A stretch of 64,000 bases of DNA from an uncultured Bacteroidales bacterium (GTDB lineage Bacteria; Bacteroidota; Bacteroidia; Bacteroidales; Paludibacteraceae). The notes under the pieces were generated by a model. The model worked only from the letters and a program-made list of their open reading frames with translations, was not told where the DNA came from and did no database searches. Both the position numbers and the translations under genes were made by a program. Positions within the stretch are counted from its first letter, which is position 1, and each line of letters opens with the position of its first letter. The stretch is taken from positions 62,001 through 126,000 of the forward strand of contig CADCEV010000005.1 of NCBI GenBank assembly GCA_902800525.1, in the 5' to 3' direction. Of the stretch, positions 52,381 through 62,467 are shown piece by piece.

Positions 52381-52402
52381 TAAAAGTACTATTTTTGTGT
52401 AA

Positions 52403-52454
52403 TTTTACACATTTTCGGCACTATATTTTGTGATTTTTACACATTTTCGGCACT
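52403..52454. repeat. Two direct repeats of TTTTACACATTTTCGGCACT
   Basis: Copies at 52403-52422 and 52435-52454, exact over 20 bp. In inverted form they contain the GCCGAAAATGTG core found at 47163-47210. They lie just upstream of the 33-codon gene's promoter. Confidence 0.75.
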
Positions 52455-52456
52455 CA

Positions 52457-52747
52457 CGCCCCGAGCAGAAAACGAAGAGGGAAGGACGCGCTCGCGGAAC
52501 TCACGCGCACAGAGATGAACTTGACAAAGACCCTACAGTGAGGTCGCGGGGAGGTCGCGGGGATATCGCGGGTTCAACAGGTAATTGTTAATTGACGATT
52601 AGACGATTGACGATTTTATGATTATTCTTAGCCCCGTGGGTACGATTTTTTCACGAAGGGCACAAAGGGAACGAAGAACCAACCGCGAGTACGAGTTACT
52701 TTTCCCGGTAGTTGATTTTTAGTAAATAAACCAAGATAAACCTAAAT
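52457..52747. other. Non-coding accessory spacer
   Basis: No gene is supported. It contains tandem GAGGTCGCGGGGAGGTCGCG units (52541-52571), a TTGACGATT repeat (52589-52615), a CACGAAGGGCACAAAGGGAA stretch, and a GTAGTTGATTTTTAGTAAAT block (52709-52728) resembling 21665-21683. Confidence 0.55.
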
Positions 52748-52835
52748 GGCGGACGGCGGACAAGCGGACACCCTTACTCACACACGCGTGTGGGTGTATG
52801 TATTTTACAGAAAGGGTGTCCGCACGTCCGCCCGG
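52748..52835. repeat. Inverted-repeat element, copy A (GCGGAC arms)
   Basis: The left arm has three GCGGAC units then ACACCCTT. The centre is CTCACACACGCGTGTGGGTG followed by TATGTATTTTACAG. The right arm is AAGGGTGT then two GTCCGC units. The arms pair over about 20 bp. The centre is nearly identical in copy B, while the arms differ in a compensating way. Confidence 0.82.
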
Positions 52836-53147
52836 TCTACCCTTTTCCCTCTATATTCCTCTACCGTTTTCGTTTGGATCGTGGTAGTGACTTTGTTTCT
52901 ACTTTCATTTTGTTTATATTGTTTGAATTTGTTTAATTTTTTATCAATTATCCGGAGGCTTCCTCTCCAAATCGTATCGATTACCCTCCCCTTACGGGTC
53001 AATCCCGCGACCATCTCGCGACCATTACGGACGTCTACGTCACGTCTCTTTCCTCTCTTTTTCCCTTTCCTCATCTCCGTCCAATATTGCCGGATCTTAT
53101 CCGGCTATCCCTTCTTGATAGTTCCGCCGATTGCCAATCGGCATTCA
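52836..53147. other. Non-coding DNA between elements A and B
   Basis: Open frames of 89 and 135 codons cross it but lack initiation signals and look like chance. It holds an inverted counterpart of the GGTCGCG tandem repeat (CGCGACCATCTCGCGACCAT, 53007-53026) and two small hairpins, GCCGGAT-CTT-ATCCGGC (53088-53104 area) and GCCGATTG-CCAATCGGC (53125-53141 area). Confidence 0.55.
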
Positions 53148-53254
53148 GGCTGACGGCTGACAGGCTGACACCCTTTTTTATAAACTAAACTCACACACGC
53201 GTGCGGGTGTATGTATTTTACGGAAAGGGTGTCAGCCGTCAGCCTGTCAGCCCG
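53148..53254. repeat. Inverted-repeat element, copy B (GCTGAC arms)
   Basis: The left arm has three GGCTGAC units then ACACCCTTTT. The centre is ACTCACACACGCGTGCGGGT followed by GTATGTATTTTACGG. The right arm is AAAGGGTGT then three GTCAGCC units. The arms pair over more than 25 bp. Compared with copy A the unit changes from GCGGAC to GCTGAC on the left and from GTCCGC to GTCAGC on the right, so pairing is kept. Confidence 0.85.
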
Positions 53255-53320
53255 ATTTTTTTCGCAGCATATTAATATTGCACTAATTTGCTATTTTTTT
53301 ATCGGACAGTAATAATAAAG

Positions 53321-53354
53321 AAACAGGCACCGACCATTGCGGTGGTGCCTGTTT
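53321..53354 (-). terminator. Terminator after the 2327-aa gene
   Basis: Stem AAACAGGCACC/GGTGCCTGTTT, 11 bp, perfect, followed on the minus strand by CTTTATTATT. Confidence 0.87.
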
Positions 53355-53426
53355 ACATGTTACGTTGCTCTTTGGGATAACCAATTGAGCAGAGATTTTG
53401 TACTTGGGACATTGTTCCTTTGTCCT

Positions 53427-56400
53427 TTATTTGGCTTCTTGACCTGTTAAGGTATATACCTTCTCCCCGCGAAGGATGAGGATTTGTCCGTCAATGAGCA
53501 CCTTGGTACATGGTACTTGGTCACGTTGTACATTCTCCAAGCCTTGCTCTGCGCTACGACGATCCACCACGTTGGAGCGTCCTGTGAGGTTAGCCGCAGG
53601 AACTCTATTGGTGTTCGTTGCAGGAGCGTTAGCCGCAGCGGGAAGGACATACTCAATCGCATAGTACGGCAGGTTGTCATCCGGTGTCTGGTCGGTGTAC
53701 GAAGTATTGGATGCTGCCACGGTAGCTATCTGTGCGAGCGAAGCGGGTGTAGCGCCTCGTAGGATGTTGTACGACGCAATCGATGCTCCTTCGTAGGCAT
53801 TCCAGATAAGGTTGAAAGTGCCGTCCATGACCCCTCGGCTGATGGTGAGGTGTACAGTCTTGTGGATAGCGGAAGCCGGTGACTCATTGCCGCTCTCTGT
53901 CACACCGGTGATACGATAGCGCTCGGCTTTCTGCGTAGCGTCGGAGTTGGCGTCCGTGAAGGAACCGGAAGAAGCCGCCGAACCGATATACTCGAACTCA
54001 TTGAGCATCGCGCCTTCCTTATAGACGTTGATCGTTGCGAAGGTAGCTACGTTGCTCCATGAGACTTGATTATGCCCGTCGGCATCGGTCGTCACGAGCG
54101 TCAGCGTCGGTATGTTCGTGGACGGCTTGACGGTCACAATGCCCTCATAAGACCCTTGACAACCGGTAGGTGTCGTGAAGACAAATTTCAGTTGCACCGT
54201 CTCGTCGCAGAGCGATGTCTTGCCGCTCACCTGTTGTGCCGTAATAGACAGCCCATTCGCCGTCAGACGCTTGTCGTAGTAAATCATGACACCGATATAG
54301 AGCACACCGTTTGCGTCCACTTCGTGCCACTCGTCGTCGTCATTAATCTTCGCGTACCACATGCCCGTTACACCTTCGGGTACCTCCGCCGTAGCCGGTG
54401 TACCTTCGTACAACTCGTTCGACACATAAACCGGCAGTTCATACGGATCTTCTATGTCTATTGTGTCCGTATAGACCATGCTTCCCAAGGTAAGCGTAAC
54501 ACCTTTTTTGCCACCTGTCTGCCAATAAACGGTGTACGGACCAAAGCCGCTGCCGTCCTTGACTACAGCGCCGTCGAAGTCCCAGACAGGTGCGTCGGTT
54601 GTCTCCGCACCGTGATACGAGATACTCGTGTAGTACCATGCGCAGGCGGAGTGCTCCAACTCTATCGGATTGCGCTCCACGGGAACGGTGAGCGTCGGTG
54701 AGAAGAGCGACATTTTGTTCTGGTTGTCGATGGCTTGCAAGGCTATCTCGTACGTGCCGTTGGAGAGTGCCGACATCGGAATGAGGAACCGCGTGGCGTT
54801 GATGTAGTTATAGCCGGGGATATACATTGCTTGGTCGTTTCCGCCGTTCTGCGGGCTAAACAGATACGTACTTGCCCCCTGTAACTTCATACTCAGGTTA
54901 TAGCGCATCAGCACCGCCGGTGTGTGGTCATCGACTGCTGCATCCCAGGTCAGCAACAAACCGGCCTCCGTCATCGTTGCTTGGATATTTGTCGGCGCAG
55001 CCGGACGCTCGTCCGCTACAGCTATAACCGGATAGAGTTGCTCATTGGCGTACAAATAATGTTTGCCTTGTGCCAAGTACAGATCCTTGACACCCGATAG
55101 GTTGACTGTCTCTGTGGCTTCCGGTATCAGCATTCCGTGGTTTAACAAGCCTTCCGCACCCATATACCATACATAGATGTCGAACACCGTCTCAATCTCT
55201 GACGGCATAGGAGACACAATATCCAAGTAACCGTTGTTGTCCACATCCGAGAGTACAAACTCATCATTGTATAAGTGCTTATGGGTACTGTTGGGCAATA
55301 CCTCTTTGGTAAAGCTCTGGTTGCCATTGTTCCAAAGGACGTAGCTGCACAATTCCCGATCCGTATTATTATCATCTACTTCTTCAATAGCAATCAAATC
55401 CGGATAACCGTCGCCGTTCAAGTCCTCCAATGCCGTGAACGTAGTTATCTGGATGGCCTCCGGGAACGGAATGTTATGCTGCTCATAGACGCCATTACCG
55501 CGGTTGTAGAATACCGGTAATTCCGTTTCCGTGTTCGAACTGGTTCGGTACCCGAGTCCTGCTATGTCTGCAAATCCGTCGTGGTCGAAGTCTTTGATGA
55601 ATATATATTGATTCCCTTGCTGTAGCATTTTGTGGAACTGATTCGCATCGCCGATGATGGTAAAGTCCTCGTTTCCAATGGTACCATCGTCGTTGAAGTG
55701 GATGATCTTCGTCTCTATGTCCTTGCCGTTAGGAGCTGTCGTATTCAGCACACATTCCTCGAAGCCGACATGCTGCATATCACTCTTGAGTGAGAAATAA
55801 TTATACGTTGTATAATTGGTATAACGATATCCCAAGAAGTACGGCAGACGCTCATTATCGTATTCCTTGGCTGTCAGTGCCGATGCTGCCGGGTCATGGA
55901 GCAAGTGGGCGTACGATTGCCCTGATCTCGAATAGATATGATACAACAAGTCCACATGTCCGTCTCTATTCCAGTCGTACCAACGTACATATTCCGGACT
56001 CGTTGATTCGCCGTCCGCTAACAAGCCGGAGTTCCACATACCGACTGCCTGCTTGAAGAGCTCCGTGGTGTCGCCTTCATAAACAACGGTATTGAGACCA
56101 TCCAAGAGACCATCGTAGGTGTAGTCCACCAACGGATAGCGGAGAATATTTTTCTGTACGTCAGTCAATGCAATTGCCGAGTCCACTGCTGCCGGTGTTA
56201 CGGACAACACCACGGATGCGGAATCTTTCGCTCCGTCCGGCATGGTCACGATATGTGTGATGGTCTTGTAACCACCTGTCGGGAAGCGGAGCACGAGGTA
56301 CGTACTATCTTTTACCAGTTCACCGTCTTCGTAACGCCAGCTGTGCGTATAACCTTCCGGTATGGCCGTATAGTGCACCTCTACCGTCTCGTTCAGACTA

Positions 56401-59400
56401 ATCCGGCTGCGCGAGAGACTGATTGCTACCGGCACTGCCGTGTGCGCGACGGTAGCTTCTTCCGACCATACCGAACCTGCATGTTGCGCGTCGATGGCTT
56501 GCACCGCTACATAAACGGTTGCAGGCGCATAGGTACGCAAATCGATGGTATAGGAGTGTGCTTTGCCCATATTGCCGTCCAGGCAGTTACGGCGTGTACC
56601 GTCTGCGTTCGCATGCGCCGCAAGGATGTCATTGCCGCCGGCCGTCGTGCCGATACGAAGTGCATAGGTCAAATCGGCTTGTGCGGTATGGCTGTCGGAA
56701 CCGTTGCCCCAGGTAACTGTCAGCAGACCATTGTTGTACTGCAGACTCGGAGCTGCCGGTGCTGTCGGACGCTCATTCGCAGCCACTGCCGGAACAGGAT
56801 ATATTTCGGTTGTTCCGTTAGCTAAGGCTATATCAGTATAATCATATGTGTACCACACGCGTGTCGTACCATTACCATCCAAATCCTCCGCATTGAGGTG
56901 CAGCCGATACGAGTTACGCGGATAACGGAGTACACTACCGTTATTTTGCACCCATACGGTAAGATTAGATGACCATCCACTTGGGAACTCCGGTTCATAG
57001 AGTTTCTGCGGAGCGGCAAAGGTATTGTTTGCACTACCGCGAAGCCATACTACTTCCGGCATTTCCGCGTAGTTAGCAGTATAAGTATCGCCACAAGTCT
57101 TACATGGAGGAGTCAGTACTAAGTTGCCGCGAATAGCCAAGAGGTCGTAATAGCCGTCGCCATCTATATCTTGACACGTCGAGAACCACAACGGATTGTC
57201 TGTGCCATAGTTCTGCTCGTTCTGCTTGGTGAAATGTCCCTGACCGTCATTAATAAAATAGCAGGTATAAGAAACGTTGCTGTTGTAGAACGCCGAGAAA
57301 GTTACTAACAAATCTATATCGCCGTCTTTATCGAAGTCCTTGCAATAAACAACATCATCCACCATTCCGGTGCTTTGCAATGCCGTGGTCACATAGTCCT
57401 GCGTCGTCGGGTTGTAGATAGCTACCGTCAGTGCTTCGCTCGGCAGCACAAAATCCGTCAGGCCGTCGTTATTGAGGTCGGTCAGAATAACATGTGCACC
57501 CATCGACTTCCATTCCCACTGACCATTGCCTTTGTTGATATAGAGCATGCCGGTTTTTTCGTTCACCAAGTCCGTGAGACCGTCGCCGTTCAAGTCGATA
57601 GCCGTCATCGGCAAGTCAAACCGGTTGCCGATACTTGGCGCTTGGCGCACACCGGCTTGCGACGGAGTTGAACTCACAAACTTCATGGCCTCAATACTGA
57701 ACGAACCGTCTGCCGACTGATAAGCGATCTGTCCGTAAGGCGAAGGTGTGTTGTTCTTCAAGAGCAGATAATCTAATCGACCGTCATTGTTCAGGTCTAA
57801 ATTGGTAATCGCGAATGCTCCGAGTTCCAACGAATAAGCATCGTTTTGGCTCATCCATAACTGCGTAGCGGTGGCGAACTCTGGCTTGCCGTCTCGGTTC
57901 ACATCTTCAATATTCAGGATACGGGTGTCGGCCGAGTATCCTAATGAATCTACAAACGTATATTGAACCATCGTATCCTGCGGCATAAAGCCCTCCGCAA
58001 GAGAGGTTGTGCTAACGATACTCAAGTCCTCCTTATTTGTAACTATCCATTCAACGGAAGAAATTTGTTCTTCTACATGATAACTCTTGACGCTCAGATT
58101 TGCCACTTGCTTCTTGCCGTCGCCGTTGAAGTCATATACCGCCTGTGCGTCCGGCATCGTCAGATACACCATGTTCTCGCGGTTCGTGCCGTTCTTTTGA
58201 TAGAGCAGATAGCCGTCCTTAAGACCCCATAGTTCGTTGCCGTTTATTCTTCGTTTTCCATATTGTCCGTAAACCACTAATGTATCACCATTCTGTATCT
58301 GTGCTGTGTGGAAGAAGGGCGTTCCGTTTAAACCTAAAGAATGAAGTATCTTAAGTGCTGCTCCGTTATTTGCATAAGCCGAATCATTCAGATAGAACGA
58401 TAAGGTACCGTCTTCGTCTATATGGGATGCCATGATATACGTGGAAATACCCTTCACCGCATAGAACTCGCCTTCCTGTACTTGGGTTGAGCGCCATTGT
58501 TCTAATGTCAGTATATCCGGATTATTCCAGTCTATATCATACACCGCTTTGATCGTCACGTCCTCCGTGATATTGGTTAACTCGTGATCCCATCCAACGA
58601 AAACATAAAATTTCTCTATCGGTGCCTCAGGGGCAGTTACATTGCCGCCTGCGAGCACACGGCTCTTTTGCAGCACATTGCCGTCAATGCCCACAAACGT
58701 AACCGTTACATACCCGGCTACCTCTTCATAGACCGGATGCACCTCGATAAACGGATTGTCTCCACCGAGGTTGGTAAGACTTGTGTCCCAGCCGATGAAC
58801 TGATAACCCGTTTCTGTCATGTCCTTAGGAGCGGTAGCATTGCCGCCGCGCGCTACTGTCTCGCGCTTAATCTCCTCGCCATGAATGTTATAGAAAATAA
58901 CGGTATATTCCGTCAACTGGCGGCACTCTATGCGATAAGCACATATTTGATAACTTGCATCCGGCATATCCCAACGCAGGGAGTCGGTGTATCCTGTCCA
59001 ATGCACATACAATCCGTCTTGTTCTACCACTCCACTGCTCCATGTAGCGGCTGCCAGATTAGCAGCGTTACTCTCATAACGACATAGAATAGTCAAATTA
59101 TTAAAGGGCTCTGCAGCTTTGAGACACTGGTAACCGCTATAGATAAGAAGTCTGTTTTGATATGTCACCCCGTCTATCACTATAGGGTCTTCACCTATGC
59201 CCCCGCCTTCATAATAGTCGCTATAGATAGTATAGTCGCCCTTGGTAGCTTGCGGCACTCTCCACGTGCCATATTGCTCACTCCATTCGTCGATGGTGTA
59301 ATTCAGTAAATTCCGATGAACAGGATGAATTTCCAGATCCGCGAGTACATCGGTAAACTCCTGATCCCAACCGCCGAAACACTCGTCGTCTATTAGGGGA

Positions 59401-60410
59401 GCAGTGGCACTACCGCCCAATGGCACTTGTTCGGTCTTGGCTATATTGCCGCTGAAATCATAGAAGGTCACCGTGGCGTGGTTGTCCGTACTATCGGAGA
59501 TGATAGTAACTCCTGCGAGAGGTGCTCCGTAGCCGGAGGTGAAGACTACCTGTGCGGCATCTCCCGTCCAGATGGCGGTACTGATGTGTCTTCCCCAGTC
59601 ATTTTCTCCTAACTCCAATTGGCCGGTGGAACAGGAGGACTTGGGATTGTCCATTTCGAGCCAATTTTCCGCAACATACGTACCTGCAAAGGTCAGGATG
59701 ATCTTTCGTATTTTGTATGGAGCTGTGACGGTGAGGGTGCTCATCCTGAAAAGATAGACGGAATTGTCCTGAAAACTCGGTTGTTGTCCCTCCAAGCCCT
59801 TCTCAAAAATAATCAGCTTGTCATCCACAGCAAATCCGATAGAATCCATCAGACCTGTCGGCCACTCGTCCCAAGGATTGTCCTCTTGCCATTGCGCTAC
59901 ATATGCAGGTATATCCAATACCGTCGTGTCGTTGTAACTGAGAGAAGGATCTACCGGCGGCTCTGAGAAGGTGACAGAGAATCCCACAAAGCCTTCCATG
60001 GCTGAGAACGTGACATTCAGGCTCTCTTCTGTGCCCGTCCAAGTTACAGTTGCGCCTTGGTTAGCAGCCGTCCCTCCGCTCCATGCGGCGTTCGTGAGGT
60101 TCGCCGCCATGGTTGCGGTGTACATCGTGAACTCTGCCTGATTCAGTTGCTTCCCTTTGGGAATAACAATCGTCATCGAGTTGCCGGAAACAGCAGCTAC
60201 TGCACTATACTGCGCGTTGTAACTCGGAGCACTGGTTCCCGTGCCTTGTGCAAAAGTAACGGTCACGCCGTCCTTGGTGTAGTCGGTCACTGCATCCCCG
60301 TTCTGGAGGCTCTTTGCCGTCGCCCATTCAGAGGCTGTGAAACTGATTGTTTGCGCCTGCATCGCGACCACCATCAGCAGTGCGAATGTCATGATAATTG
60401 ACTTTTTCAT
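53427..60410 (-). CDS. 2327-aa secreted FG-GAP/InlB-repeat protein with sorting tail
   Basis: The signal peptide is MKKSIIMTFALLMVVAMQAQ. Three InlB-type B-repeats lie at about 309-360, 505-565 and 570-630 (each with GGxxTAP ... GWD). From about 830 come FG-GAP/VCBS-type calcium-binding motifs (DVNRDGKPEF, DLNNDGRLDYL, DLNGDGLTDLV, DKDGDIDLLV). Fibronectin-III-like domains at about 1207 and 1803 share the opening ERPxAPxxxxxxxxxGLLxxTW. A second FG-GAP block lies near 1500-1720, and a further FnIII-like region near 2150-2260. It ends KVLIDGQILILRGEKVYTL, the shared tail. The FG-GAP strands suggest two beta-propeller-like parts. An exported surface protein is likely; the ligand is unknown. It has its own promoter and terminator. 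Confidence 0.83.
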   Translation of the reverse strand: MKKSIIMTFALLMVVAMQAQTISFTASEWATAKSLQNGDAVTDYTKDGVTVTFAQGTGTSAPSYNAQYSAVAAVSGNSMTIVIPKGKQLNQAEFTMYTATMAANLTNAAWSGGTAANQGATVTWTGTEESLNVTFSAMEGFVGFSVTFSEPPVDPSLSYNDTTVLDIPAYVAQWQEDNPWDEWPTGLMDSIGFAVDDKLIIFEKGLEGQQPSFQDNSVYLFRMSTLTVTAPYKIRKIILTFAGTYVAENWLEMDNPKSSCSTGQLELGENDWGRHISTAIWTGDAAQVVFTSGYGAPLAGVTIISDSTDNHATVTFYDFSGNIAKTEQVPLGGSATAPLIDDECFGGWDQEFTDVLADLEIHPVHRNLLNYTIDEWSEQYGTWRVPQATKGDYTIYSDYYEGGGIGEDPIVIDGVTYQNRLLIYSGYQCLKAAEPFNNLTILCRYESNAANLAAATWSSGVVEQDGLYVHWTGYTDSLRWDMPDASYQICAYRIECRQLTEYTVIFYNIHGEEIKRETVARGGNATAPKDMTETGYQFIGWDTSLTNLGGDNPFIEVHPVYEEVAGYVTVTFVGIDGNVLQKSRVLAGGNVTAPEAPIEKFYVFVGWDHELTNITEDVTIKAVYDIDWNNPDILTLEQWRSTQVQEGEFYAVKGISTYIMASHIDEDGTLSFYLNDSAYANNGAALKILHSLGLNGTPFFHTAQIQNGDTLVVYGQYGKRRINGNELWGLKDGYLLYQKNGTNRENMVYLTMPDAQAVYDFNGDGKKQVANLSVKSYHVEEQISSVEWIVTNKEDLSIVSTTSLAEGFMPQDTMVQYTFVDSLGYSADTRILNIEDVNRDGKPEFATATQLWMSQNDAYSLELGAFAITNLDLNNDGRLDYLLLKNNTPSPYGQIAYQSADGSFSIEAMKFVSSTPSQAGVRQAPSIGNRFDLPMTAIDLNGDGLTDLVNEKTGMLYINKGNGQWEWKSMGAHVILTDLNNDGLTDFVLPSEALTVAIYNPTTQDYVTTALQSTGMVDDVVYCKDFDKDGDIDLLVTFSAFYNSNVSYTCYFINDGQGHFTKQNEQNYGTDNPLWFSTCQDIDGDGYYDLLAIRGNLVLTPPCKTCGDTYTANYAEMPEVVWLRGSANNTFAAPQKLYEPEFPSGWSSNLTVWVQNNGSVLRYPRNSYRLHLNAEDLDGNGTTRVWYTYDYTDIALANGTTEIYPVPAVAANERPTAPAAPSLQYNNGLLTVTWGNGSDSHTAQADLTYALRIGTTAGGNDILAAHANADGTRRNCLDGNMGKAHSYTIDLRTYAPATVYVAVQAIDAQHAGSVWSEEATVAHTAVPVAISLSRSRISLNETVEVHYTAIPEGYTHSWRYEDGELVKDSTYLVLRFPTGGYKTITHIVTMPDGAKDSASVVLSVTPAAVDSAIALTDVQKNILRYPLVDYTYDGLLDGLNTVVYEGDTTELFKQAVGMWNSGLLADGESTSPEYVRWYDWNRDGHVDLLYHIYSRSGQSYAHLLHDPAASALTAKEYDNERLPYFLGYRYTNYTTYNYFSLKSDMQHVGFEECVLNTTAPNGKDIETKIIHFNDDGTIGNEDFTIIGDANQFHKMLQQGNQYIFIKDFDHDGFADIAGLGYRTSSNTETELPVFYNRGNGVYEQHNIPFPEAIQITTFTALEDLNGDGYPDLIAIEEVDDNNTDRELCSYVLWNNGNQSFTKEVLPNSTHKHLYNDEFVLSDVDNNGYLDIVSPMPSEIETVFDIYVWYMGAEGLLNHGMLIPEATETVNLSGVKDLYLAQGKHYLYANEQLYPVIAVADERPAAPTNIQATMTEAGLLLTWDAAVDDHTPAVLMRYNLSMKLQGASTYLFSPQNGGNDQAMYIPGYNYINATRFLIPMSALSNGTYEIALQAIDNQNKMSLFSPTLTVPVERNPIELEHSACAWYYTSISYHGAETTDAPVWDFDGAVVKDGSGFGPYTVYWQTGGKKGVTLTLGSMVYTDTIDIEDPYELPVYVSNELYEGTPATAEVPEGVTGMWYAKINDDDEWHEVDANGVLYIGVMIYYDKRLTANGLSITAQQVSGKTSLCDETVQLKFVFTTPTGCQGSYEGIVTVKPSTNIPTLTLVTTDADGHNQVSWSNVATFATINVYKEGAMLNEFEYIGSAASSGSFTDANSDATQKAERYRITGVTESGNESPASAIHKTVHLTISRGVMDGTFNLIWNAYEGASIASYNILRGATPASLAQIATVAASNTSYTDQTPDDNLPYYAIEYVLPAAANAPATNTNRVPAANLTGRSNVVDRRSAEQGLENVQRDQVPCTKVLIDGQILILRGEKVYTLTGQEAK

Positions 60411-60683: not shown

Positions 60684-61697
60684 TCAAAACATAGACTGCT
60701 GGCCGTCGGGGGAGAGGATGGTTTTGCCGAGATGGCGGTACGCCAGTTCGGTAGCTTCGCGGCCACGAGGAGTACGTTTGATGAAACCCTCTTTGATGAG
60801 GTAAGGCTCATAGACATCTTCGATCGTGCCGGCATCCTCGCCCATGGCGGTAGCGATGGTGGTCAGTCCGACAGGTCCGCCACGGAACTTATCGATGATG
60901 GTAACGAGCAGTTTGTTGTCGATCTGGTCGAGACCGAAAGTATCTATGTTGAGTGCTTCGAGGGCGTATTGGGCTATTTCGAGGTCGATTGTACCGTTTC
61001 CTTTGACTTGTGCAAAATCGCGCACACGGCGGAGTAGTGCGTTCGCGATACGGGGCGTACCACGGCTACGACGAGCTATCTCTCCTGCGGCTTTGGAGTT
61101 GATCTCCACGCCGAGCAGTCCTGCTGAGCGTTTGACGATCCCGGCAAGGATGTCAGCATCGTAGTATTCGAGGTGGCAGTTGATACCAAAACGTGCGCGT
61201 AGCGGCGAGGTCAAGAGTCCCGAACGGGTCGTTGCTCCGATGAGGGTGAAATGGTTCAAGTCGATCTGGATCGTGCGCGCCGAAGGACCCTTATCTATCA
61301 TAATATCAATGCGATAATCCTCCATTGCCGAATAGAGATACTCTTCGACAATAGGCGAAAGACGATGGATCTCGTCGATGAAAAGGACATCGTTGGGTTC
61401 GAGGGAAGTGAGCAGTCCGGCGAGGTCGCCGGGTTTATCGAGTACAGGTCCGGAAGTGACTTTGAAGCCGACGCCCAATTCGTTGGCGATGATGTTAGAG
61501 AGGGTTGTTTTGCCGAGTCCCGGAGGTCCAAAGAGGAGGACATGGTCCAAGGATTCGTGGCGCATTTTAGCTGCCTCGACGAAGATCTTGAGGTTCGAAG
61601 TGACTTTGCTCTGTCCTGCAAAGTCCGCGAAGCACAAGGGACGCAAGGCGTTATCCTGCTCTTTCTCGTTCATTTGGTTTCGGATATCGAAGTCCAT
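60684..61697 (-). CDS. ruvB: Holliday junction helicase RuvB
   Basis: A 337-aa full-length RuvB: Walker [10 protein letters not shown], Walker [13 protein letters not shown], sensor [19 protein letters not shown], arginine finger and C-terminal winged-helix ([20 protein letters not shown]). It drives branch migration with RuvA, which is not in the window. ATG 61697 (MDFDIRNQ) is right; the frame open to 61877 runs through repeat DNA. It follows the ABC ATPase gene after a 62-bp repeat-filled gap and may be co-transcribed. Confidence 0.96.
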
Positions 61698-61759
61698 AAT
61701 AGTTGATAGTTGAAAGTTGATAGTTAAAAGAAGTCGCCTAGTTTTAAGTCGTTTAGTTA

Positions 61760-62467
61760 TTAAGTTATTAAGTTGCCAGTTGTTGCGGCATGGAAGAGGG
61801 CTTCCAGATCGTCTATTTCGTTGATCATCTTGTCGGCTTTGATCGTGCCGTGGTCCAAAATGATGACGCGGTCGCACATCTCCCGCACTTCCTGCATGAT
61901 GTGGGTGGAGAGGATGATAGAAGGAAGCCTACCCCCATCCCCTCCCTGAAGGGAAGGGAGTTTGGAAAGATTCTTGATGAGGGCACGAATCTCGATGAGT
62001 TGGTTAGGGTCGAGACCGGTGGTGGGTTCATCAAGAATGAGCAGTTCGGGGTTGCCGATTAGGGCTTGCGCCAAGCCGACACGCTGGCGATAGCCTTTGC
62101 TCAGTTCGCGAATATGTTTGTGCCGCTCGGGCGTGAGACCTACAAGATCTATAAGATCATTTACGATTTGACAATTTGCGATTTGACGATTGGTCAGCCC
62201 CGCCATGAACTCAAGGTATTCGGTGACGTACATCTCCTCATAAAGAGGATTATTCTCCGGCAGATATCCGATAGATGCGGGCACAGAGACTGTACCGCTG
62301 TCGGGTTTCCAAAGCCCCATGAGGATCTTCATGAGCGTCGATTTGCCGGCACCGTTTGGACCCAACAAACCTACCACCTGTCCGGCAGGGATCTCCAAAG
62401 TGACATCATTCAGTACTCGTTGCGAGCCGAAAGACTTGTTAATATGTTGGCAATTGATAATTGACAA
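61760..62467 (-). CDS. ABC transporter ATP-binding protein (GldA-like)
   Basis: About 235 aa from TTG 62467. Walker [11 protein letters not shown]-loop [16 protein letters not shown], signature [10 protein letters not shown], Walker [17 protein letters not shown] and H-loop STHIM are all present. The YLPENNPLY stretch resembles GldA-type ATPases of Bacteroidota. The start is uncertain: the promoter at 62554-62585 excludes ATG 62584, and the candidates are TTG 62467 or 62512. Two repeat-derived insertions lie in frame: [12 protein letters not shown] (62160-62196) and [15 protein letters not shown] (61928-61960), the latter just before the H-loop. No permease gene is adjacent. Confidence 0.78.
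61928..61960 (-). repeat. GC-rich CCCTTC...GGGTAGG repeat inside the ABC gene
   Basis: On the minus strand CTCCCTTCCCTTCAGGGAGG then GGATGGGGGTAGG, closely matching 1728-1762. Here it is read in another frame, as [13 protein letters not shown]. Confidence 0.78.

Follow-up and report, generated by a model that had tools for sequence, protein, structure and literature searches.

Two inverted-repeat elements in the genome of an uncultured Bacteroidales bacterium, here called copies A and B, are very probably orphaned replication origins of VapE-type replicons, flanked by iterons in the manner of SaPI origins. This reading is carried by the location of related elements directly behind vapE genes, their architecture, the covariation of their arms, the association of the repeated word with the C-terminal domain of the adjacent helicase, and the existence of copies that have lost the gene. 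Both copies lie in a stretch of 64,000 nucleotides (the window, G000:C5:62001-126000), which belongs to a 2.39-Mb assembly.

Architecture and copies of the element

Copy A opens with a left iteron arm, GGCGGAC GGCGGAC aa GCGGAC (52748..52769; read from the sequence and from repeats D4 and I2), continues with a core (52770..52817) made up of an ACCCTT boundary, the central palindrome CTCACACACGCGTGTG (52777-52792), TATTTTAC and an AAGGGT boundary, and closes with a right iteron arm, GTCCGC ac GTCCGCC (52818..52832), that complements the left one. Copy B comprises a left arm, GGCTGAC GGCTGAC a GGCTGAC (53148..53169), a core (53170..53230; read from the sequence and from aligned copies) containing ACCCTT, TATAAA, CTCACACACGCGTGCGGGTG, TATTTTAC and AAGGGT, and a complementary right arm, GTCAGCC GTCAGCC t GTCAGCC (53231..53252). 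A core related to that of copy A recurs across 33 aligned copies.

Both elements were found in the sequence where the original prediction had placed them, and their centres are nearly identical, as it described (48 nt in common, 94% identity). The predicted complementarity of the arms was borne out (24 nt at 88% in A; 17 nt and 15 nt, each at 100%, in B), as were the GGTCGCG repeats in both orientations, which are present in the window and also lie beside further copies. Hexamer units on both sides had likewise been proposed; this holds for B, with three per side, and in part for A, with three on the left (52748-52769) and two on the right (52818-52832). Within the window, the core pattern has two matches at ≤3 mismatches, against an average of 0 over 100 dinucleotide shuffles, and folding as single-stranded DNA gave z = -6.4 for A and z = -9.2 for B, with 0 of 200 shuffles equalling either.

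A pattern search allowing ≤2 mismatches found nine full copies at six places in the same genome (two each on C2, C5 (A and B) and C20, and one each on C6, C12 and C19), with half copies additionally on C14. At ≤3 mismatches, the core pattern was found in 18 of 61 genomes, all of the same genus, with some matches at the level of the reversed-pattern control. In general, the arms on either side of a conserved core are inverted relative to each other and built from 6-9 nt units in tandem, and this unit varies among copies. The nine copies in this genome use six words (GGCGGAC, GGCTGAC, GGGTGAC, TGAACACC, ATGAGCAG and ATGACAG), which rules out a single duplication from A to B. Copies A and B are therefore not the only copies, and the arms pair in the further ones as well, two points on which the original prediction had depended. 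The core is asymmetric and occurs in both orientations relative to vapE, differing by locus (as in L149 and L148, where the origin lies behind vapE).

Covariation of the arms, initially claimed from two copies, extends to 19 aligned copies and to 68 vapE loci. Because the full MAFFT alignment mis-registers two subtypes, pair counts were limited to the ACCC subtype alone (19 of the 33 rows of alignment A2). In these 19 copies, an 11-pair inner helix was 97.6% paired, against 37-51% in slid registers; there were 19 double-change cells, against 5.9 ± 1.7 after shuffling, and the covariation score was 0.266, against 0.085, with 0 of 500 shuffles as high in either case. In the same copies, neither the count of double-changed pairs (4, reached by 33 of 500 shuffles) nor that of further pair types (6, reached by 111 of 500) was significant. 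RNAalifold on all 33 rows, an alignment that mis-registers the two subtypes, gave seven pairs, all showing one or more compensatory changes. At the 68 vapE loci, where arms were compared in fixed windows and without selection on pairing, an arm scored 6.87 with arms taken from other loci but 14.35 with its own partner, a level that 0 of 10,000 random pairings attained, and its own partner was best or tied in 41 of 68 loci and strictly best in 31 of 68.

Inverted iteron arrays at the 3′ end of vapE

In genome G034, two copies start where a frame resembling VapE, and weakly DUF3874, has its stop codon, and several 3′ ends of intact vapE genes from a protein search have the same architecture with unrelated words (e.g., GGTGTAGGT and GCTGACAGT). 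These relatives, with the same element behind a VapE helicase gene, uphold the iteron or replication-origin-like site among the options of the original prediction, whereas its structured-RNA option gained no support from the Rfam search reported below.

We scanned GTDB contigs with five VapE proteins; from the 369 relatives that this gave, the 80 best loci were retained, their record titles naming Paludibacteraceae, other Bacteroidales, Prevotella and some others. Together with seven earlier loci, these yielded 89 VapE frames (duplicates included), of which 72 had ≥150 nt downstream and 68 remained after de-duplication. Around each stop codon, a region reaching from 50 nt ahead of its first base to 253 nt past it was given a fixed inverted-repeat (IR) score with a threshold of ≥12, and frames of ≥200 codons in the same loci supplied control gene ends. 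Of the 68 vapE 3′ ends, 48 reached the threshold; of the 399 control ends, which were not de-duplicated, 20 did. Among the 20 of 68 vapE ends below 12, several have iteron-like arms by eye, a few belong to interrupted frames, and some lack any clear structure (L109, L182). Where a scored arm lies near the stop codon (47 loci), the left arm starts at a median position of 3 from the first base of the stop (range -33 to 28), the arms have 54% GC and the loop 36% GC, and the loop has a median length of 58 nt (30-91). The central hairpin is modest, being equalled by ≤2 of 50 shuffles in 15 of 47 loops, and its centre lies near the middle of the loop.

Viral contigs show the same excess: among the best 80 IMG/VR loci, 40 of 72 distinct VapE ends reached IR ≥12, against 15 of 466 other ends, in a set that retains some near-duplicates and in which some inverted repeats are not tandem, and 32 of 72 VapE ends fell below the threshold. 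Identity in these best 80 loci is ≤33%, and E < 1e-40 is reached in three alone; with the window stretch having no match in the phage collection, identification of the cassette with a known phage was rejected. At six VapE loci farther removed, from phages, plasmids and faecal records, a score of 12 was attained once, a weak case with a 12-bp repeat. Given an excess in both Bacteroidales and viral contigs and mostly negative distant loci, the architecture seems to be a broader, though not universal, property of VapE initiators.

Several features of these loci were recorded alongside. Clear inverted iteron arrays stand behind VapE on the viral or prophage contigs L265, L269, L272 and others, with four TGTCACCC units per arm in L265. 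Fewer than 150 nt follow 17 of the 89 vapE frames (L105-L192, duplicates included), as if contigs tended to break at the origin. In 36 of 45 loci, vapE has one or, often, several members of a small-protein cluster in its neighbourhood (median 103 aa; L134 9578-9889 and relatives); similarly placed small proteins of L105, L106, L108 and L109 had no Pfam match (four) or a sub-threshold one (one). A further cluster, similar to the DUF5675 protein of L106, is represented in 11 of 45 loci, and no integrase was recognised among the 14 largest neighbour-gene clusters of the 45 loci, represented by one example each. A block of vapE, origin and small gene, 2.18 kb long, is 93% identical between two genomes with unrelated flanks (L134 5995-8169, L135 5982-8157). 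Because its end is a gene stop and other cassette genes continue beyond it in L134, we rejected the block ends as boundaries of a mobile unit and read the block as a recent transfer or module exchange, claiming no boundaries.

PF05272 is present in 53 of 53 members of protein alignment A3, and DUF3874 in 31 of 53 at E ≤ 0.5 (best 1.7e-5). A Bacteroidales VapE profile finds PDB 7pds_A (‘Similar to D. nodosus vapE’) with E = 2.4e-20 over profile positions 24-292, a chain that comes from a SaPI helicase. The SaPI origin reportedly consists of two iteron sets around an AT-rich region (Ubeda et al.). A study of related helicases describes a short-iteron origin directly downstream of the SaPI helicase gene, recognised by the C-terminal domain (PMC7581432). 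In the same study, SCCmec Cch2 is a D5-type helicase whose C-terminal domain binds direct repeats behind its own gene, with three 5-nt iterons, a putative origin, and inverted repeats that are dispensable for binding (PMC7581432).

The elements reported here share with SaPI a position directly 3′ of a VapE-family helicase gene (the 48 of 68 vapE ends against 20 of 399), tandem short iterons in two sets round an AT-richer loop (GC 0.54 against 0.36 at the 47 loci), and the helicase homology captured by the match to 7pds_A. Unlike SaPI, their iteron sets are clearly arranged as an inverted repeat, in many cases enclosing a small palindrome at the centre, their words differ widely among paralogues, their hosts are Bacteroidales, and nine copies in one genome have no intact vapE alongside. 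As with Cch2, the repeats occupy the intergenic region behind the helicase gene, but the helicase is VapE-type and the units are 6-9 nt long. Iteron plasmid origins also combine tandem short repeats beside an AT-rich region with an initiator gene; in contrast to these in general, the initiator here is a VapE-domain helicase (PF05272).

A helicase gene followed by an iteron origin is of a kind already known from Staphylococcus islands. What is new, as far as our searches show, is the Bacteroidales system, its symmetric form, words that evolve with the initiator, and the scattered orphan origins; literature on the origins of Bacteroidales VapE elements was not recognised among the best full-text matches, with subscription journals mostly outside coverage. 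Found in phages and bacterial islands, vapE is often annotated just as virulence-associated or unknown, and a recognisable 3′ origin would give it a role and mark its replicons in raw sequence even after gene loss.

The iteron word and the C-terminal domain

Iteron words follow the C-terminal domain of VapE more than its helicase domain. Across 47 loci, word was associated with C-terminal distance given the helicase (partial r = 0.248, p = 0.0002), against 0.053 (p = 0.095) for the reverse test of word and helicase given the C-terminus, permutation p values that still contain shared ancestry. The corresponding values for 37 loci of the viral set were 0.417 (p = 0.0002) and, in reverse, -0.161 (p = 1.0), with the C-terminal region taken to the protein end and a few left arms overlapping the last codons, which adds some circularity. 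Among pairs at a helicase distance ≤0.1, mean iteron distance was 0.12 (8 pairs) at a C-terminal distance <0.1, 0.64 (31 pairs) at 0.1-0.2 and 0.92 (63 pairs) at 0.2-0.3, followed by 0.89 (19 pairs) and 0.64 (one pair) in the next C-terminal bins. Loci L105 and L132 illustrate the pattern, with a helicase distance of 0.01, a C-terminal distance of 0.30, and the words ATGACAG and GGCTGAC, respectively.

In intact genes, the residues before an RGW motif sort with the word: GCTGAC goes with K-x-G-[T/V]-RGW (5 intact genes), GCGGAC with K-x-R-T-RGW (3), GGTGAC with H-G-K-x-RGW (3), GAACA-C/G with KQ...RTRGW (3), and ATGACAG with CL-x-GK-x-RGW (3). A Gly/Arg difference thereby accompanies the T/G difference between the words of A and B in the intact genes examined. 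Seventeen of the 21 intact genes with a classed word match their class, none falls in another class and four fall in no class, a count that describes rather than tests, because the classes came from those same genes; moreover, the class pattern for GACCAG is one residue too short, so its four copies (two intact) count as ‘no class’. For the 20 truncated or interrupted copies, eight match, four have the wing of another class and eight fall in no class, while both copies at contig edges match. The non-fitting copies include L004 of the window's own genome, in which GCTGAC stands with KSRIRGW, and a search of the genus found no new intact gene bearing a classed word. That the C-terminal domain would recognise the iterons specifically is supported statistically by these associations; our guess, from sequence, is that this domain may be a winged helix.

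For VapE origins in general, we infer DNA binding, melting, replication and incompatibility. In an intact unit, vapE would end in, or just before, an origin composed of two inverted sets, usually of two to three short iterons each, flanking an AT-richer core of 30-91 nt that often has a small central palindrome. The C-terminal domain of VapE would bind the iterons, as the word-domain correlations and the L105/L132 pair suggest; two complexes, one per arm, might then assemble head to head, in keeping with the symmetry of the site; and, by analogy, the AT-richer core would open and the helicases load. Word and C-terminal domain would diversify together, presumably allowing several elements to share a cell free of cross-talk. 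These naturally occurring helicases, which vary chiefly in the C-terminal domain and are each paired with a word of their own, offer a ready-made test of how initiators read DNA.

Gene-less copies and competing explanations

The remark of the original prediction that the window has no Rep or primase gene fits a tblastn search with VapE and other cassette proteins, which gave 0 window matches at E ≤ 0.01. A putative remnant of the last codons of vapE (R-N-I-E-G-K-G-stop; 52838..52861, minus strand), recognised by eye against the 3′ ends of relatives, adjoins copy A; at about eight codons, with the same letters in L050, it is too short for tblastn. No vapE remnant was recognised alongside copy B. 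A pattern search over the loci also delimited a likely remnant of the cassette region downstream of an origin (52515..52587, minus strand), whose CGCGATATCC..CGCGACCTC repeats also lie downstream of the origin in the intact locus L086, and whose GGGTCTTTGTCAAGTTCAT is common to the gene-less copies L002 and L008 and near-identical in L023, L045 and L052. Repeats and pattern search further outlined a second type of origin-side region (53004..53149), with CCCGCGACCATCTCGCGACC repeats and the palindromes GCCGGATCTTATCCGGC and CGATTGCCAATCGG; it is common to copies on C6 and C20, and the palindromes also occur at G021:C62. Based on the vapE scrap and the downstream-type stretches, A and B look like two decayed cassettes of different word classes, lying next to each other and each having lost vapE. 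Palindromes GCCGGATCTTATCCGGC and GTCCGGATCGTATCCGGAC were noted downstream of several origin copies (window 53088-53149; L008 1590-1660) and are possibly a second repeat family or accessory sites.

By tblastn, none of the nine copies in this genome has an intact vapE beside it, and no other cassette-protein matches lie near them; vapE 3′ remnants adjoin the copies on C6 (70 codons), C12 (57), C19 (27) and C2 (24). An intact gene may exist on C16, because a VapE-domain frame there is cut by the contig end. Across 178 genomes of the genus, a search with the VapE C-terminus gave 87 matches in 53 genomes, of which 64 fall in frames of ≥340 aa and 20 in contig-internal frames that are short or interrupted (54-203 aa), while the remaining 3 are in short frames abutting the end of a contig. 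An order-wide search added almost nothing (additions from 2 of 393 genomes), because the genomes were drawn evenly. Read as orphaned origins, these copies would account for a family of interspersed repeats in Bacteroidales of the rumen and gut, its members being origins that are dead or silent.

The orphan copies might also be more than debris: acting as resident decoys or sites of incompatibility, they could titrate an incoming VapE with a matching C-terminus or misdirect it, with the GCGGAC/GCTGAC switch reflecting an arms race between replicons and resident origins. We consider this improbable; if it were true, the mismatches between wing and word (4 of 12 classifiable truncated copies) would represent origins rewritten after gene loss. 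Somewhat less probable still is that the arms are operators, through which VapE or a neighbouring HTH protein controls transcription, and that the site is not an origin. There is an HTH gene upstream of vapE in L106, and plasmid iteron origins often double as operators, but the element is at the 3′ end of the gene and not at its promoter (IR ≥12 is reached by 48 of 68 vapE 3′ ends but by 6 of the 83 upstream regions, a set that was not de-duplicated), and two inverted sets around an AT-richer core suit an origin better.

Movement by a transposase, as for a REPIN- or MITE-like element whose proximity to vapE is secondary, is very unlikely. REPINs are dispersed intergenic inverted repeats with several copies per genome, and the elements described here resemble them in being dispersed, inverted and multicopy (nine copies at six places in one genome), in their palindromic form and in the further palindromes of their flanks. 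However, their arms carry matched words and vary as whole words, where a transposase would need constancy, so the constant terminal inverted repeats of a MITE are absent, the outer arms differing between copies. Furthermore, no RAYT (Y1 transposase, PF01797) scored above the cut-off in the window's own genome (two weak matches below it; assembly 92.7% complete), and the excess at vapE ends holds in both Bacteroidales and viral contigs.

An RNA hairpin, as a terminator or a structured 3′ UTR of vapE, has equally little chance of being correct: terminator-like matches in both cores (4 in the stretch, against 1.1 expected) and the strong fold z-scores of A and B speak for it, but tandem units in each arm and an exchange of words with the C-terminal domain are unexpected of a terminator, the core can point either way with respect to vapE, and no Rfam family was found. 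The structured-RNA option was rejected on a search of the window that gave 0 Rfam matches at the gathering score and nothing credible at a lax threshold, the latter returning nine matches in 52400-53400, all below the gathering score and seven of them to microRNA families. Orphaned iteron-flanked origins thus remain our preferred reading of A and B. The intergenic stretch around them also holds two 32-nt units with 81% identity (52388-52451) and two ATTGACGATT-type 15-nt units (52591-52620), and elsewhere in the window the minus strand encodes RuvB (60687-61877) and a 2327-aa frame (53427-60410) with an FG-GAP repeat at the start of its scanned 667-aa C-terminal piece.
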